A stretch of 64,000 nt of DNA from Mesaphorura yosii (taxonomy: Eukaryota > Arthropoda > Collembola > Poduromorpha > Tullbergiidae): the NCBI GenBank assembly GCA_009869945.1, contig WIXG01000299.1:33124-97123 (forward strand), in the 5' to 3' direction. Shown in pieces: positions 17,524 to 38,095 of the stretch (position 1 is its first letter; each line of letters begins with the position of its first letter). The position numbers and the translations under genes were made by a program. The notes below the pieces were generated by a model that saw nothing but the letters and a program-made list of their open reading frames with translations, was not told the origin of the DNA and did no database searches.

Positions 17524-18294
17524 GAAGAATACGGTTGGTATTGGTCAAAGCATTTAAATGTAATTCACTGTCACTGTTGTATTTCCCTGTTATTTATTGG
17601 TTACGCTGACATACATAACCATCATTTTGCAATAAAAAGTTACATTCAGGGTTCTTTTGATAAAAAAACTTGAAAGAAGTCTGACGAACTCGAAAACGTA
17701 TACAGTCGAAGTCAACGAATCTGAAACGAACTCATGGCATTTGTTACTTTTCCTTGCATGTTTTAAACGGAAAGAAGCTCACGTCGAACACGACAGTACA
17801 CAGAAAAGCTCGCTTCCAATTACAACTTTTTTAATTCATTGATTTACAATCCCATGACCGGAGATACAAAATATAATAATAATTATAGTAATTGAGTGCT
17901 TCAATTGCTTCCTTAATCAAATTAAAACTGCTAAGTCTCCAAGCTAATTTAAGGGTAAGACGTAAGACTAAATACTGGTTGAGATTCATATTTGATTCAC
18001 AACTTAGTTTCACACTAATTAATTATGAATTTGGGGTTTTAATTTCACGCTTCTGGAATTTCTTTGGTCTCCGCTCTGCCACTCCAGTTGTGTCTTATTC
18101 CTGGTCAAGATGCACATGTCGACGTCACCATTTCACTGAACTTTTGACGACGTGTTCTGGTTGATCAGCTTCCTGTCTGGAGCATAAGAGGTATGATAAA
18201 CTGATTGTAATTGTTAATTTATCATCGTGTCGCGTCGACACTCAGTTTCTGTATTCTTAATAGATACAAACTCCTGCATATTCTCTTCGCAAAA
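17524..18294. other. Intergenic region between MED6 and CFP1
   Basis: About 770 bp with the MED6 poly(A) signal at 17631 and AT-rich sequence. I see no gene or structured element in the remainder; the 3' part must hold the CFP1 promoter. Confidence 0.5.
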
Positions 18295-20391
18295 ATGTCC
18301 GGCTCCAAGAAAGACATCGCGAAGCAATTCGAACTCCCTGAGCGACAATCCAAGATCGCGTCTATCCTCAAGGAGTCTGAAGTGTACTGCATTTGCCGAT
18401 CAACTGATTCGACTAGTTTCATGATAGCATGCGACAACTGCGAAGAATGGTTTCACGGACACTGCGTCAATATAAACGAAGTGCAATCGAGGCAGGTTAA
18501 GCATTACTACTGCTCTCAATGCCGAAAGGAGAATCCGGGGCTGAAAATCGAGTACAAGAAACCCAAGGGCTCGAGTGCATCCCATGCCCCAGCTCACAAG
18601 GAGAAGGAAACGGTCAGGCAAGAACGAGAACCTCGTGAGCGCGACCCCGCAGCAGCAGCCAAGAGCGGAAGCAGTACAAAAAGGGGTCCGGGACGCCCAT
18701 GGAAGACGGCGGAGAAGAAAGCGGAGGTGGACCGAGACGACGAATACCAGCCTTACAGCAGCAGTCACAGCCACAGCAAAAGGCTGACACCCCGGAACGA
18801 AGTAGCAGAAGAGCCTCCGTTCGTTCCACCGCCACCTCGCTCAACTCGCCGGGGTCGACCGTCCAAAGATGATGCCGGGTTCGGTGCGGAGCTGAAAGGG
18901 CTCAGACAGTGCTATCAGCCAAAATGCAGAAAAGCTGCGCGCCCCAGCTCGAAGTACTGCAGCGACGAGTGTGGGCTCATTCTTGCTGCCACCCGCATGC
19001 AGCTCATTCTGCCGTCGCGTATTCAAGAATGGTCAGTGAAATCCGTCGCCGAAGAACACAACGACCGCGATCTGACCGAAATCAAGCGGAAATACGACGC
19101 CACGTACCAAATGATCAAAGACCTGCAGCTGAAGCGCGATAAACTCGACGAGCACATTGCAAAAGTGGAGAGGCTGCAATACGACCCCGAGCACGAAGAG
19201 GAGGAGGACGAAGAAGAGGGCACCGTGACATGCGTGAGTTGTGGGCGTGACGTACCGAGTCGAGACTCAGTCAAGCACATGGAAAAGTGCTACCACAAAT
19301 ACGAGAGTCAGATGTCTTTCGGCTCAAAGTTTGCGACGAGCGTCGAAGGCACACCGATCTTCTGCGACTTCTTCAACCAACAAAACAAGACTTACTGTAA
19401 GCGGCTGCGAGTGCTCTGCAACGAGCACACGAAGGAGCCAAAAATCAGCGATACGGCCATTTGTGGATGTCCAGCCGACAACGAAGTCAAGCCTGGCGGC
19501 CGATTCTGCCGAAATCTCAAGAAAATTTGCAGTAAACACTTCAGTTGGGAGAAACTGCGGCGTGGCGAGATTGACCAAGAGCGGGTGCGACAGTTTATGA
19601 AGATTGACGACCTGCTCGAGCAAGAACGTGTCGCCCTGCAATCGAAGCAGGATCGAGGCGGTGTCATGGGTCTTCTGCTCAACTCGACATACGACCACGA
19701 GCTGGATGCAAAGATGGCGGCAGAGGTCGAGGAACACAAACGCCAGAAGCAGGAGTACGAGGAACAAATGCGGCAGCGAGAAGAGAACGCGAGAAGAGTG
19801 CGTCAGGAGCAGGAGGCTGCGGCGGCCGCGCGGATGCGATACGAGCAGGAAATGATAAGAAGACGGGCGTTCGAAATGGAACGGGCAAAGGAAGCGCATC
19901 TCAAGCGAGAGGAGATGAAAATGAGACAGCAGATGCTCGATGCCCGGAAGGCGGCGGAGATGCACGCGAGCGCGGGCTCCAGTCAAAAACCGACGACGGC
20001 AACTTCAGCGTCAGCAGCAGGGAAATCAGTGAGCAGGCAACTCGTCGCGGCTGTTGCTGATAAGAAGAATGTCAACTACTCCTCATCGAGTGCGTCTGGC
20101 GGCTCGAGATCAGGCTCGTTCTCTGGCTCTGGCTCCGGCTCAGACAGCGGAAGCGGAGCGGCCAGCACCGAATCGGGCTCGGAGGACGAGCGGCCGATGG
20201 AAGTTGACGACGCAGACGAAGACGCGCGTGCAGGCTCCGACACTCCTCCAGCAAAAGACGAGGATCGTCCATGGCAAGACTCCTTCGTCCACCTGCCGTC
20301 GAAGAGGGAAAAGACGCGCAGGTCTTTTGATAGCGGCGACGGTGGCGGAGGGGCAGGCGAAATGACAGCGTCAAGATTGAGCAAGAAGTAA
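18295..20391 (+). CDS. CXXC1: CFP1/CXXC1-like subunit of SET1/COMPASS without a CXXC finger
   Basis: A single exon encodes 698 aa. The start (18295) precedes a PHD finger (residues about 31-77, YCICRS...CDNCEEWFH...CVNI...YYCSQC), the H3K4me3-reading module of CFP1/Spp1. From about 206 the CFP1-specific C-terminal zinc region follows without a break: CYQPKCRKAARPSSKYCSDEC, QLILPSRIQEW, CVSCGRDVPSRDSVKHMEKCYHKYESQMSFGS, FCDFFNQQNKTYCKRL, and the Set1-binding segment through WEKLRRGEID. Animal CFP1 normally carries a CXXC finger between these parts. Here residues 80-205 contain no cysteine cluster at all, but two AT-hook-like cores, KRGPGRPWK (129-137) and RRGRPSK (185-191). A C-terminal Arg/Glu coiled coil and Ser/Gly-rich tail are extra. 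AATAAA at 20438. Confidence 0.9.
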   Translation: MSGSKKDIAKQFELPERQSKIASILKESEVYCICRSTDSTSFMIACDNCEEWFHGHCVNINEVQSRQVKHYYCSQCRKENPGLKIEYKKPKGSSASHAPAHKEKETVRQEREPRERDPAAAAKSGSSTKRGPGRPWKTAEKKAEVDRDDEYQPYSSSHSHSKRLTPRNEVAEEPPFVPPPPRSTRRGRPSKDDAGFGAELKGLRQCYQPKCRKAARPSSKYCSDECGLILAATRMQLILPSRIQEWSVKSVAEEHNDRDLTEIKRKYDATYQMIKDLQLKRDKLDEHIAKVERLQYDPEHEEEEDEEEGTVTCVSCGRDVPSRDSVKHMEKCYHKYESQMSFGSKFATSVEGTPIFCDFFNQQNKTYCKRLRVLCNEHTKEPKISDTAICGCPADNEVKPGGRFCRNLKKICSKHFSWEKLRRGEIDQERVRQFMKIDDLLEQERVALQSKQDRGGVMGLLLNSTYDHELDAKMAAEVEEHKRQKQEYEEQMRQREENARRVRQEQEAAAAARMRYEQEMIRRRAFEMERAKEAHLKREEMKMRQQMLDARKAAEMHASAGSSQKPTTATSASAAGKSVSRQLVAAVADKKNVNYSSSSASGGSRSGSFSGSGSGSDSGSGAASTESGSEDERPMEVDDADEDARAGSDTPPAKDEDRPWQDSFVHLPSKREKTRRSFDSGDGGGGAGEMTASRLSKK

Positions 20392-20651
20392 TTTCAATTT
20401 CTTATCTTGTGTTAATTATAATTATGTTTCACGTGACAATAAAATACGTTATTATTCTTGAGATTCGTCGTTGTCACTCTTATTATTGGCATTTTAATTA
20501 CTGGTTGAGGCGACCGCAAACTTAACTTAAAACGGTCGAGCTCTTCTTCAAGCATGAAACCGCAGAGGAAAATCAATTCTGTAAATTAATCGGGCAGTCA
20601 GTTCCTTGAATTCGTTATTGTTCAGGCATTCTTCTTTGGCTGTACCCGAAA

Positions 20652-21139
20652 ATGACTGGCTCCGACGCGATCATTGGCAAGTGGCTGAAGGTGAGCGAGA
20701 GTGGGATCGCCGAGTACATGGCTGCTCTCCGCGCGAACGCTCCACCAAATGCACGCCTCGTCCTCGAGTGGCTCCGGGCCACGACGGGACACTGGATCCA
20801 AGTCATGCAGATCAACGAGCTGTCCCTGGGCCAAGTATTCAAGCTGGGAGAGCAGTACGACCACGAGTCATTCGATGGATCCATGGCGAAGGTAAAACAA
20901 TGCTGCCATTCGCAATTCTTCGAGACGCCTCGATTCTTTATTGATTGCAGAGCACAATCACCGTCGACGGTAACGTTATGACCCAGCTGCAGATTCATAA
21001 TGGAAATGAGATGCGAGTCGTTCGGGAGTTCAGTGGCGATAAGATGAGGACTCGCTTTACGCTGACTGGATCCGATGTGGAGGCGACAAACGACTTTGTT
21101 CGAGTTCAGAGGTGCGAGTATCAAACCGCGAGCTCATAA
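20652..21139 (+). CDS. Fatty-acid-binding protein family (FABP/lipocalin)
   Basis: Two exons (20652-20891, 20951-21139) give 142 aa, the usual size of an intracellular lipid-binding protein. It starts with IIGKWLKVSESGIAEYMAAL, the conserved FABP opening (GKWxLV..ENFxxYM). It ends with strands typical of the barrel (MRVVREFSGDKMRTRFTLTG... VRVQRCEY). There is no signal peptide, so it is cytosolic. The intron falls mid-barrel. The central part is less typical than in vertebrate FABPs, so ligand preference cannot be said. AATAAA at 21180 follows the stop by 41 bases. Confidence 0.8.
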
Positions 21140-32311: not shown

Positions 32312-34290
32312 TCACGGCAGTGGAATTGGACGTTTTGCGTAACATTTTTCTATGAGGCACACTATCCAACTGAAAGCACCTCCCACCAAGAGTACCGCGA
32401 ACGCAGCCAATAAATCCCTGAGTCCAAGATCCTCTTCACGAATGCCACTTTTCTCCCCGCAGAGGATGTGGTTATGTCTATGCCATGTGCGCAGTAGTCG
32501 CGCTCGAACTCCACTTTCTACCATTTTTACCATCGCATAGTTCAAATGCCCGAACAATGGCGACTCACGGTGCACAAATTGACTTGTTTGTGTGATCGCT
32601 CCTGGCAAAGGCACGTGATCGACCTCAGCGCAAAGAAAAGCGGCTGAGATGTTGTTCCGTACAGTGACGGGGTAGAAGACCTCCCTTGAACTGATTAATG
32701 CCAGTCTGATGTGCCCCAAGTCCCACAACTTATCCTCAACGAGTACCCCGCGCTCGTATGCAACTCTAGGTAGCTCGTGATTCGACTCCATTGCACGCAG
32801 CATAACTCCACCACTTGGAATCAACACGTCGTGCACTATGATAAAGTCCTGGTGGACCAGATCGTAGAATTCTCGTATGGGGTTCATATGCACTGATAGC
32901 AGTGATACTAGGGCACCAGAGTAAGCAACGTACAGAGTAAGGGCCGCTAAACTGCTGATCAGTCCGACAATCTTGGCGGCCACCGACACTTGCGTTGTAG
33001 CTTGCAAACCTTGCTTTAGAATTGTGGCAGCTGACCGGAACAGGGCCATGACAAACTCGACTGGAGTCCCTTCATCTTGCTGGGCAACAAACTCAGTGAC
33101 AACTGTCGCCAAACTGAGAGTAACCCAGAGGCCAAGCAACGCTATCCACAATCCAGGAGTGAATGGGTGCAAGTACACGTTCCTTACTGTCGCGGCTGGA
33201 GGTTGTCGGAAAAATGCGTATTGTCCGAGTATGGCAGTGGGCATCAGTAGCCGGATCGCATCTGGCCCACGCAACCTGTACGGAATAAAATCCGTCAACC
33301 CCACCCCGATATCGACTTCCCCTGATCTGACGCGCTCCCCAAACCCCACAAGGGTTTCATTTGGTCCAGCAGAAATCACTTGGGCTGCATCTTTGAACGA
33401 TCGTTCACTGAAGTTTAATACATCCCGGAAATAACGAAATATTTCAACATTAAATCCGCTCTCGAACTCTTCGGTTTCGTCTCGGAATTTTGTAGAGTGG
33501 TTATAGTTGAAATTTTCGACTCCAATACCGCTCACAACTACTCCTTCGAAATCGGATCGCCGTCGTATCGTACTGCTGCGAAGAAGTTCGGCCGGAGATT
33601 TAGTGATCACATGGTGTGTTATGAACTTATCGCGAATATGGTAAGATTCTTGGACATGGGTAGAGATTTGAGATCGTGGAGTTTCACATTTAAACGAGAT
33701 TAGGTACACTTGGTCTGTGATGCTGCAGAGTTGGCCAACAAATTCCAACACGGTTGGACTGGTATGAATGGCTTCCATTATCGGAATCAGCAGGTACAAG
33801 ATGTTGTGATTGGGGAATGTTCTTTCTGGTCTATGCGATACCTAAACCATTGAAAATTAAAGGCATGACAATGATATGAGGCGCCTAGTTACGAGAGTGG
33901 GTTGGATAGTGTAAGAACCTGTTGAAGAACTTGGAATAATTCGGATTCATTGTAATAAGGGAGGACTACCACCAATGGGGAGCCCTGATTCCGTGAAATT
34001 GAGTCGTTTAACTGCTGTGATGATATTACGGTGGACAGAGCAATTCCTGCGACATGACCGAAGTCTTCAGGATGGGTAATCACTTCCCTTGCTCCGTCTA
34101 CCCAATGCACGAGCATTTCATACTCATGAGTGAACGATATGGCCAGTGATAACAGGTTTTGATGCAAGGAATTTTGAACGAAGCCAGACTGACAGATGTA
34201 ATTACCCAATTCTCCGTCCGCAATGCTGAGCTGTGTGCAGCACGCAAATAGTTGGATGTAGGCCACGGTCCTGATAAAGAGCGACTTCAT
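32312..34290 (-). CDS. Divergent ionotropic receptor (chemosensory iGluR-like)
   Basis: Two exons (34290-33919 and 33841-32312) give about 633 aa. The start follows with a signal-like N-terminus (MKSLFIRTVAYIQLFACC). The second exon contains an S1-like ligand-binding lobe (GFNVEIFRYFRDVLNF ... RSGEVDIGVGLTDFIPYR), the first membrane helix (LWIALLGLWVTLSLATVVTEF), a short pore segment, the M2/M3 helix (AAKIVGLISSLAALTLYVAYSGALVSLLS), the S2 lobe, and a last helix (LAAFAVLLVGGAFSWIVCLIE). This order is that of arthropod IRs. The glutamate-binding residues of true iGluRs are not evident, so ligand type is unknown. The exon-1 donor (GTTCTT at 33918) is weak and is the least certain point. Confidence 0.8.
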
Positions 34291-34819: not shown

Positions 34820-35126
34820 CTATGTTGAAATAGAAGATGGATCGTGAGGCTGAGGTCGTACTGTTCACAAAATGGGCCAGATCGTACATTGTTATAAATT
34901 ACTATTACTATTTTTATATTTGACGTAATTTGAAATCGAAGCCTTGACCTACGTATGAGTATGTCAGATAAGCAAGTGTTCTTGTCCTTGTTCTACACGA
35001 ATTCAATTTATTGCGATTAATTGGATTTTGAAAAAATACAACAGGCAACTATCAACAAAAGCTACAAATTGAAATACCTTCTTGGTTTTGGCAACTTTCG
35101 TCTGGTAGAAGGTTAAACTCGAGGCG

Positions 35127-36516
35127 ATGGCGTCCGTGGAAAGTATTCGCCTGTTATGGCTCACAAATGTAGGCTACCAACTTAGACTTTTGCCTTATCG
35201 GTACGATTTTGAGGTAGACGTCAGAATGCGAAGTAGAAGCATTCATTCAGACGGAAAAGGTTACAATTCAGTAAGGGAAAAGAAAGAAACTTCGCGACAG
35301 GAAGAGGTCCTTGAGCTCGGATCCCCTGAGCACCGGTTTCAGTTTCTGGCCATGAATTTGTTCACCCTGATCCTCCAATTCTTCTTGCTTGCCGTCGGCG
35401 TATGGTACGAGTTCCGTTCGGGTAGCGATATCAAAATACCCGAACGACTCCAGTTCTATTTCTTCGCGACCGTGACGGTATTCTCGATTGTGACCCAACT
35501 CATGACCTTGTTCTACACGGAGAGAATCGTGGGCATCCAAAGCACTTTCTTTGCCCATAACCAAAATCTATACACGCACGGTCTATTAAAGGGCCTGGAG
35601 AAGGATGGGGTGGAAGGACTTCTGAAGACATTCATTGTCGTAATAATATTCGTGACTTCCTTCATGCTGCCTTTATGGTTCTCCGCGATGTATTTCGGTC
35701 TACATGGCCATGCGCTTCTCGGTAAGGGCAGTATGACAATTTCCCTGGTTTGGTCCGCCGTGTACAGTTTCGTCGTACTCTCACAATGGATACGCGTTTT
35801 TCATCTGGCATACTTTGCCGTGATCATCGCCAACTCCACCTGCCGTGTCCTGAAGGTGATCAAATGGACATCTGGAAATCAAACTCAAAATACAAGCTGG
35901 CTCGATCTTTACCATTACGAAGCATACATTTCTGACTCTGGTGAGCGATGTAGTGTTTGCTACAGTTATCGATCTGTTGGTCGCATTCAGTACCTAAGTG
36001 ATGAGAGTATACACCGAACATTTCGATTGCCTTGATAATCAATGCAGACGTGAAGTTGATTTATGTTGGGTAGTACAATTAAATCTCATGTTATATAAAC
36101 TCATAAAAATTATTACCTAAAATGGATCGTATTGCCACATCTTGATGGAATCAACTTTATGCTCATTCTGAAAAAATCTAGTTTCATCGTTATCAATGAA
36201 CATTGAATTTAGCAGTATTATGCCAGTGTTGTGAATTTATCTAATCACATAAGTAATCCTCAGTTTCAGTTGCGTTCGAGAATGGATATTCTATTTTATA
36301 GTGATCAATGTTGTGCTCGCCGGATACTTTGGATGAAGACTGTTGACTGGAAAGTCAAGCAAGCATTGGAAGAGGAATTTGAACTCAACAATCATACATC
36401 TCATGCGACAAATATTTGGAGCGCCAGTTGCAAAACTGCGTCTGATTACGTACACACTTGGGGCCGCCCTCAACGCCGTCGTCACGTACTCAGTCATCGT
36501 TCATCAACTTAAGTAG
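35127..36516 (+). pseudogene. Gustatory-receptor pseudogene
   Basis: A frame from ATG 35127 encodes about 250 residues with four or more membrane helices (e.g. FLAMNLFTLILQFFLLAVGVW, LQFYFFATVTVFSIVTQLM, FIVVIIFVTSFMLPLWF). The next helix (TFLTLVSDVVFATVIDLLVAF, about 35923-35994) is in another frame and is followed by TAA. Near 36291-36390 the frame shifts again. The locus ends in a clear receptor tail: ITYTLGAALNAVVTYSVIVHQLK then TAG at 36514. The TYxxxxxQ motif identifies the family. At least two frame changes and a stop make a working gene unlikely unless unusual introns are involved. Confidence 0.6.
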
Positions 36517-36775
36517 AAAATTGTATACCTGTCTAATTTATGAATCATCACAATGAATGGAAGTTTCTATTTCTGAGTTACTTAAATATCAATCAAAATA
36601 ATGCCTGCAGAAGTGAACCAGCTAACATGGTAAAAGGAATAGAATAAAATGGTGACAAATTGGAAACTGACATGTTGAGTTCGTGGACAATTCGACATAA
36701 TTTTCATGATTAAATTAACTTTCGACTTCATTTGTCATATTACTGAAAGATTTTGAGGAACGCGCGCATTAAAAA

Positions 36776-38095
36776 ATGGACGAACAGATTCTTCGCATAG
36801 ATTCGATTGCCGAAAAATTTAAATTACAGGAAAAATTCCGGCTCAAAATTAGTGAGCCGGAGCTAAAACCGGGCGCGGCCCGACCACCACCGATTTTGGA
36901 TCTACTCACCCAATATTTCAGATTCGGATACTTCTTACATCTGCTGCCGTACAAAATTTTGTATCGTGGAAATGAATTTGTAGTGCATTCCACCACCCCA
37001 CGCAAGATCATCTCCGCAATCTTAGAATGCATCAGTTTGTACACATACATTTCGTACTCTCGGATATTTGACGGCTCCGTTCCGCTTCAGGCCGGACTCT
37101 TTCGCGAAGAACCGACCTGCCTGAGTAAGGCCGTATTTTTCATAGTCATTTGGAGAAAGCGGGATGGATTCTTGGGCCTCTTTCAAGAAATCTACAAAAG
37201 AACGAGTACCTTCACTACAACTTTTACCTGCTTCAGAATTCATGCAATTGGCGTCGGCTTATGCTCGTTGTACATGTTTCTGGCTGCTTCCTGTACATTT
37301 GGGGGGCATCGCCTCATGAGCTTCAACCAATGGAGTCCAGCCATGTTTGTGAACAGTATGGCTGCATTCACCAGAATCATGTTATTCATGGATCCCTATT
37401 GTTCTTCTGAACTCTCGGGAACGGATTACGTCTTGGCCTTCGCCCAAATTCCGGTCCAGTTTTTTAACCAACTTACTTCCTTCTACTCAGGTCTGCTTCT
37501 ACAAACGATGGCCTTAACATTTGCGCTGCTTTGTGCAGATTTTGCGGATCGAGTCGAAGGTGGCAATATGGACACACGTCAAGCCCTACGTGGGTATGTT
37601 GACTTGCTGGCCATGACCGACCGCATCAACGATGTCGCAAGAGTCATCTTCGGAGCGTATCTGTTTGAAGAAATCTACTACACAATCTATATCAGTGATT
37701 TTGTCCCAGGAATAGATTGGCTCGTTCAAATAAGGTACTCTATCTTTGTATTGACTCTGTTCTCGTTCCTTTTCGCTGGTGCGTGGGGCACGCAGCGGGT
37801 GGAGCGAGCTATGATGCAATGGATTCGGATCGTGGATGCAAAGAAAGAGGATAGTAATCGCCTCGAATGTGGCCAGTTGACAATTGTGATCATGATGAAC
37901 GAGCTAAACAATCATCGAATCAGTTTGTCGGCTATGGGTTCTGTAACAATTACATATGGCTTCATTGGAACAGTAAGTAATTTCTGTTCTAAAACGAATT
38001 GATGTTATGGTTGATTTCTCTAAGTAAATATGTTGCAGGCTGTGAGCATCATCTTGACGTATGGAATCGTGGTGCTACAGATGAGAAAGCCATGA
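36776..38095 (+). CDS. Gustatory receptor (intact)
   Basis: Two exons (36776-37972 and 38039-38095) give 417 aa with about seven hydrophobic segments. The final exon encodes AVSIILTYGIVVLQMRKP, with the conserved TYxxxxxQ motif of the insect-type gustatory/odorant receptor superfamily; the phase-0 intron just before this motif is also typical of the family. Members are inverted seven-helix ligand-gated cation channels on chemosensory neurons. The gene sits in a cluster with one ionotropic receptor and several receptor relics (34721, 35127, 38352, 41337). Ligand unknown. Confidence 0.85.

Follow-up and report, generated by a model that had tools for sequence, protein, structure and literature searches.

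The single CFP1 found in the springtail Mesaphorura yosii has no CpG-binding CXXC finger

Introduction

How would the H3K4 methyltransferase complex SET1/COMPASS be targeted if its CFP1 subunit had no finger with which to bind CpG? The question is raised by a gene of the springtail Mesaphorura yosii (Collembola; Tullbergiidae) that lies within a 64,000-nucleotide stretch of contig WIXG01000299.1 (assembly GCA_009869945.1, positions 33,124 to 97,123 of the forward strand), which in its whole length is referred to here as the window. An initial annotation read the gene as a CFP1 in which two AT-hook-like motifs stand where the CXXC finger would be expected. Here we compare that reading with domain searches, searches of the whole genome assembly, and what is in print on CFP1 elsewhere.

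Results

Translation of the window gave, at exact coordinates, one frame that ended in a stop codon and contained no internal stops (Table 1). Its N-terminal PHD finger matched PF00628 at 37.5 bits against a cut-off of 24 (E 2.4e-9), and a search of the PDB returned as its best chain 9c0o, a CXXC1 chain; three Spp1 chains matched as well, ranked below PHF2, PHF8, DIDO1, and BPTF. The C-terminal zinc region matched PF12269 (CpG_bind_C) at 271.8 bits against a cut-off of 26.3 (E 7.6e-81) over positions 1-236 of the 236-position profile. When the C-terminal region alone was compared with the PDB, no Spp1 chain was returned, and the two matches that appeared (E 0.43 and 0.81) were not meaningful. 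The four-cysteine stretch from C206 to C226 occupies what we take to be the place expected for the SET1-interacting region, a function that it would presumably serve. We conclude that the PHD finger and the C-terminal CFP1 zinc region are intact, as the initial annotation had held, both being recognized by Pfam and CpG_bind_C being present at full profile length.

Table 1. Features of the CFP1 gene and its surroundings, in coordinates of the window
Feature	Position	Strand	Basis or remark
Possible 73-nt 5' UTR intron	18191..18263	+	GT...AG, candidate, by eye
CFP1/Spp1-type gene	18295..20391	+	One open coding frame, 698 aa
PHD finger, residues 32-76	18388..18522	+	Pfam PF00628
Cysteine-free linker, residues 77-205, where CXXC would sit	18523..18909	+	Sequence
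Weak AT-hook-like motif KRGPGRPWK, residues 129-137	18679..18705	+	PGRP in place of RGRP
AT-hook-like motif RRGRPSK, residues 185-191	18847..18867	+	Full RGRP core
Four-cysteine stretch C206-x4-C211-x10-C222-x3-C226	18910..18972	+	Cysteine positions
CpG_bind_C domain (CFP1 C-terminal zinc region), residues 231-461	18985..19677	+	Pfam PF12269
Predicted long charged helix, residues 437-558	19603..19968	+	Single-sequence model; overlaps end of CpG_bind_C
Low-complexity tail, residues 559-698	19969..20388	+	No predicted structure; Ser/Gly/acid-rich in later part
AATAAA poly(A) signal	20438..20443	+	Sequence

Between the two domains, by contrast with what CXXC would require, the protein contains no cysteine: the cysteines fall at residues 32, 34, 46, 49, 57, 73, and 76, then at 206, 211, 222, and 226 and ten further positions, and there are none at 77-205, which rules out an eight-cysteine CXXC finger in the linker. 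Consistent with this, zf-CXXC was not among the 8 Pfam families listed for CFP1 at E<=10, and residues 80-205 gave no Pfam match. The other two forward frames of the linker contain stops, and a six-frame scan of the window for a CXXC pattern gave no match, although the scan used one fixed spacing and would miss a loop as long as that of the KDM2-like finger described below. The linker itself (residues 78-205) has a net charge of +9, consists to 80% of disorder-promoting residues, and was without predicted structure in a single-sequence model. Moreover, a search for a second CXXC1 copy found none: PF12269, run over the whole genome (93.0 Mb, 1127 contigs), gave 1 match, the CFP1 gene at 18295-20391. 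We conclude that the absence of the finger noted initially stands and that the only CFP1 found in this genome is a form without the CpG-binding finger, the finger presumably having been lost, as opposed to never present.

Beyond CpG_bind_C, CFP1 continues for 237 residues (462-698) as a long helix and a low-complexity tail, and this C-terminal extension (window 19603-20388) was absent from the initial annotation. For the helix, the block pLDDT was >90 over residues 481-550 (single-sequence model, mean pLDDT 51). As the model was of low confidence even for the PHD finger and the C-terminal domain, we draw on it only where the linker and long helix are concerned. No Pfam family exceeded its cut-off in the extension, and a coiled-coil contact with a partner would be a guess. 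Elsewhere in the window, an ionotropic-receptor-like open reading frame (Lig_chan) was seen at 32312-33841 on the minus strand, and two plus-strand frames (35109-36035 and 36773-38002) were gustatory-receptor-like by eye, with no Pfam match at E<=0.01. A search for COX1 gave no match and hence provided no mitochondrial marker.

A SET1 gene with an N-SET and a SET domain was found on contig C502. For complex membership, H3K4me3 binding, the recruitment route, and the role of the linker, we infer the following, which taken together we consider quite probable. The CFP1 found would be an Spp1-like form that still belongs to SET1/COMPASS by way of C-terminal parts binding SET1 and RbBP5 and whose PHD finger reads H3K4me3, as the domain families suggest. 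Targeting might then run by H3K4me3 feedback and Pol II-coupled recruitment, by analogy with yeast, where recruitment of COMPASS by phosphorylated Pol II has been proposed and deletion of Spp1 is described as mainly cutting H3K4me3 (PMC5603731). The basic, disordered linker would make at most weak, non-CpG contact with DNA.

An AT-hook consists of an RGRP core with basic flanks. Two GRP-core motifs had been noted at residues 129-137 and 185-191, and their positions were confirmed; a basic-flanked RGRP is present at 185-191 and not at 129-137. Because the patterns were picked after the motifs had been seen, the shuffle and frame figures that follow flatter the GRP motifs: when residues 77-205 were shuffled 20,000 times, 0.4% of the shuffles had a basic-flanked RGRP, 0.7% had two GRP cores, and 0.015% reached, in a looser count of [R/P]GRP, at least the observed 3, a number that is inflated because matches of the two motifs overlap; a basic-flanked RGRP occurred in 1 of 61 stop-to-stop frames of at least 200 codons, that of CFP1 (264 kb including the window; many of these frames are not genes); and in a looser scan of 33 sources, from which one locus (L005) was left out as a repeat of the window and in which some loci overlap each other, a basic GRP occurred in 10 of 545 frames of at least 100 codons, two being found in the CFP1 frame only. 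We conclude that the GRP motifs of the CFP1 linker are somewhat unusual.

The initial annotation had gone further and suggested that recruitment switched to the AT-rich minor groove. According to this explanation, CpG recognition gave way to AT-rich minor-groove binding by the motifs of the linker, which steer COMPASS to AT-rich promoters. Consistent with it are the low frequency of a basic-flanked RGRP in shuffles and long frames and the fact that the linker carries a pair of basic GRP motifs, as does no other of the 545 frames. The 800 bases upstream of CFP1 are also 55-71% AT per 100 bases, which is not telling because the window overall is 53% AT. On the other side, the motif at 129-137 has PGRP and not RGRP, and the Pfam AT-hook (PF02178) was unreported at E<=10 for the whole of CFP1, for residues 80-205, and for two 27-residue pieces, a result to be read with the caution that a model of this short length may be lost at the HMMER filters and that the search had no positive control. 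Moreover, AT-hooks are described as usually insufficient alone for selective location of a protein, while supporting promoter recognition (PMC5870349). Among the literature matches listed (titles and abstract starts), none placed an AT-hook in CFP1, which is no claim of absence from print. A peptide-pattern search for relatives matched 22 stretches in a genome-contig collection and 2 in a viral-contig collection, none of which was confirmed. We conclude that an AT-hook switch in CFP1 is possible but unlikely and that this part of the initial annotation is not supported; a switch in COMPASS targeting would become testable if the RGRP motif were conserved in relatives.

Loss of the finger from CFP1 is not general to CXXC fingers in this genome. 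PF02008 (CXXC), searched over the genome at E<=10, gave 4 matches, of which 2 exceeded the cut-off and none lay on contig C299, which carries CFP1; weak matches can be chance, because one control genome, that of B. subtilis, also gave a match below threshold. The two matches over the cut-off belong to other genes, one KDM2-like (L002) and one of TET/CXXC4/5 type (L001). The KDM2-like finger (L002:1357-2115, minus strand) has KDM2B as its best solved relative, and a PHD_4 finger comes after it in the same orientation. It scored 28.7 bits in the genome search, over the cut-off, and 26.0 against 26.5 as a protein piece, just under it. Eight cysteines are present, the KFGG motif is missing, the loop is longer, and an RQ dipeptide precedes the seventh cysteine at a distance greater by one residue than that of KQ in the KDM2B chain. 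The second finger (L001:1423-1722, minus strand) also has eight cysteines, together with an HQ dipeptide, and the six solved relatives that match it best comprise methylcytosine dioxygenases (TET), CXXC5, CXXC4, and a Xenopus chain identified as TET3 in PMC3685328. This finger lies on contig C104 and the TET catalytic exons on contig C74; the two may belong to separate genes or to one gene split in the assembly.

In CXXC fingers KQ or RQ is described as contacting CpG, KFGG as making no specific CpG contact, and HQ as carried by type-3 fingers (PMC3685328). Since RQ and HQ are kept in the KDM2-like and TET/CXXC4/5-type genes, as are all eight cysteines, CpG reading by CXXC fingers is probably not abolished genome-wide; in KDM2, with the changed loop of its finger, CpG reading may or may not persist. 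One may also imagine a lineage in which AT-hook binding took the place of CpG recognition in CFP1, which steers H3K4 methylation to AT-rich promoters, while KDM2 and the TET/CXXC4/5-type protein still read unmethylated cytosines, an arrangement that we regard as quite unlikely.

The initial annotation had tentatively tied the missing finger to a loss of DNA methylation. PF00145 (DNA_methylase) at E<=1 identified in the genome one gene only, as two pieces at one place, the best solved relatives of which are Dnmt2; a TGA read across in the first piece was taken for an intron. Thus, the search for DNMT1 and DNMT3 found no DNA methylase gene but Dnmt2. UHRF-type SRA, DNMT1-RFD, and the CDCA7-type zinc finger gave no match in the genome; as no control genome matched either, we claim no absence for these. 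TET gave 3 matches, 2 over the cut-off and all on contig C74, and MBD gave 6 matches, 4 over the cut-off. The ratio of observed to expected CpG had a mean of 1.03 (standard deviation 0.15) in 200 1-kb pieces from 20 stretches of contigs C5 to C425, and one component fitted better than two by BIC; the ratio of the window was 1.07. We conclude that Dnmt2 as the only methylase found, together with undepleted and unimodal CpG, fits absence of CpG methylation.

The route by which the finger disappeared could have been replacement of the gene by a reverse-transcribed mRNA without the CXXC exon, an event that would account at once for the lack of the finger and for the lack of introns in the coding frame. 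CFP1 is indeed one open coding frame, while a short intron seems, by eye, to interrupt the neighbor gene at 20652. A long intron-free frame is not special in this genome, however, because SET1 also lies in an open frame of 1365 codons; moreover, no remnant of a poly(A) tract was seen by eye, and plain deletion or decay fits the data equally well. We consider such a replacement improbable. The SET1 frame (L011:1-2415, plus strand) makes SET1 a second COMPASS gene with a long intron-free frame. Finally, that the absence of the CXXC finger is merely apparent, through a skipped exon, an assembly error, or a second CFP1, is highly improbable: an assembly of 1127 contigs could lack some sequence, but the PHD finger and the C-terminal domain share one open frame in a window without N, the contig holds no CXXC match, and no second CpG_bind_C occurs in 93 Mb.

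Discussion

The reading that we prefer, a single-copy Spp1-like CFP1 probably targeted by routes other than CpG, can be set against systems already described. Mammalian CFP1 (CXXC1) has in common with that of M. yosii an N-terminal PHD finger and a cysteine-rich C-terminal domain (PMC6868398) and differs in its CXXC finger, through which unmethylated CpG is bound (PMC6868398, PMC7294231). C. elegans CFP-1 is the reverse of the M. yosii protein, as it keeps CXXC and is described as without PHD (PMC6868398); it is likewise one domain short, in an animal for which no functional DNMT is reported (PMC5934874).

The methylation state of M. yosii is comparable to that of another springtail, Holacanthella, for which Dnmt2 and Tet, no Dnmt1 or Dnmt3, and unimodal CpG are reported, with a lower CpG mean (0.7 versus 1.03; PMC5644144). 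With regard to the proposed link between loss of CXXC and loss of DNA methylation, the missing CXXC and a search that found only Dnmt2 are supported, CpG is undepleted, and the link is in print for Drosophila (PMC7294231), but it is not a rule, since C. elegans CFP-1 keeps CXXC (PMC6868398). Methylation loss need not cause loss of CXXC, because C. elegans retains the finger despite its reported lack of a functional DNMT.

In Drosophila, the lineage of which lost DNA methylation, CFP1 is described as encoding no functional CXXC (PMC7294231, with two reviews cited there), and M. yosii appears alike on both points. CFP1 homologues without CXXC are also described for S. cerevisiae and S. pombe (PMC7145517), in agreement with the earlier mention of yeast Spp1 as a CFP1 relative without CXXC, which the same source states. 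Spp1 (Cps40), a COMPASS subunit, shares with M. yosii CFP1 the PHD finger, the C-terminal zinc region, and the lack of CXXC (PMC7145517); the M. yosii protein differs in the GRP motifs of its linker and in its long helical and disordered C-terminal extension. As yeast and Drosophila have already been described without CXXC, M. yosii CFP1 belongs to a kind that is already known. We conclude that, as a clean case in single copy and accompanied by SET1, it extends the published pattern of a CFP1 without a CpG finger where DNA methylation has been lost.
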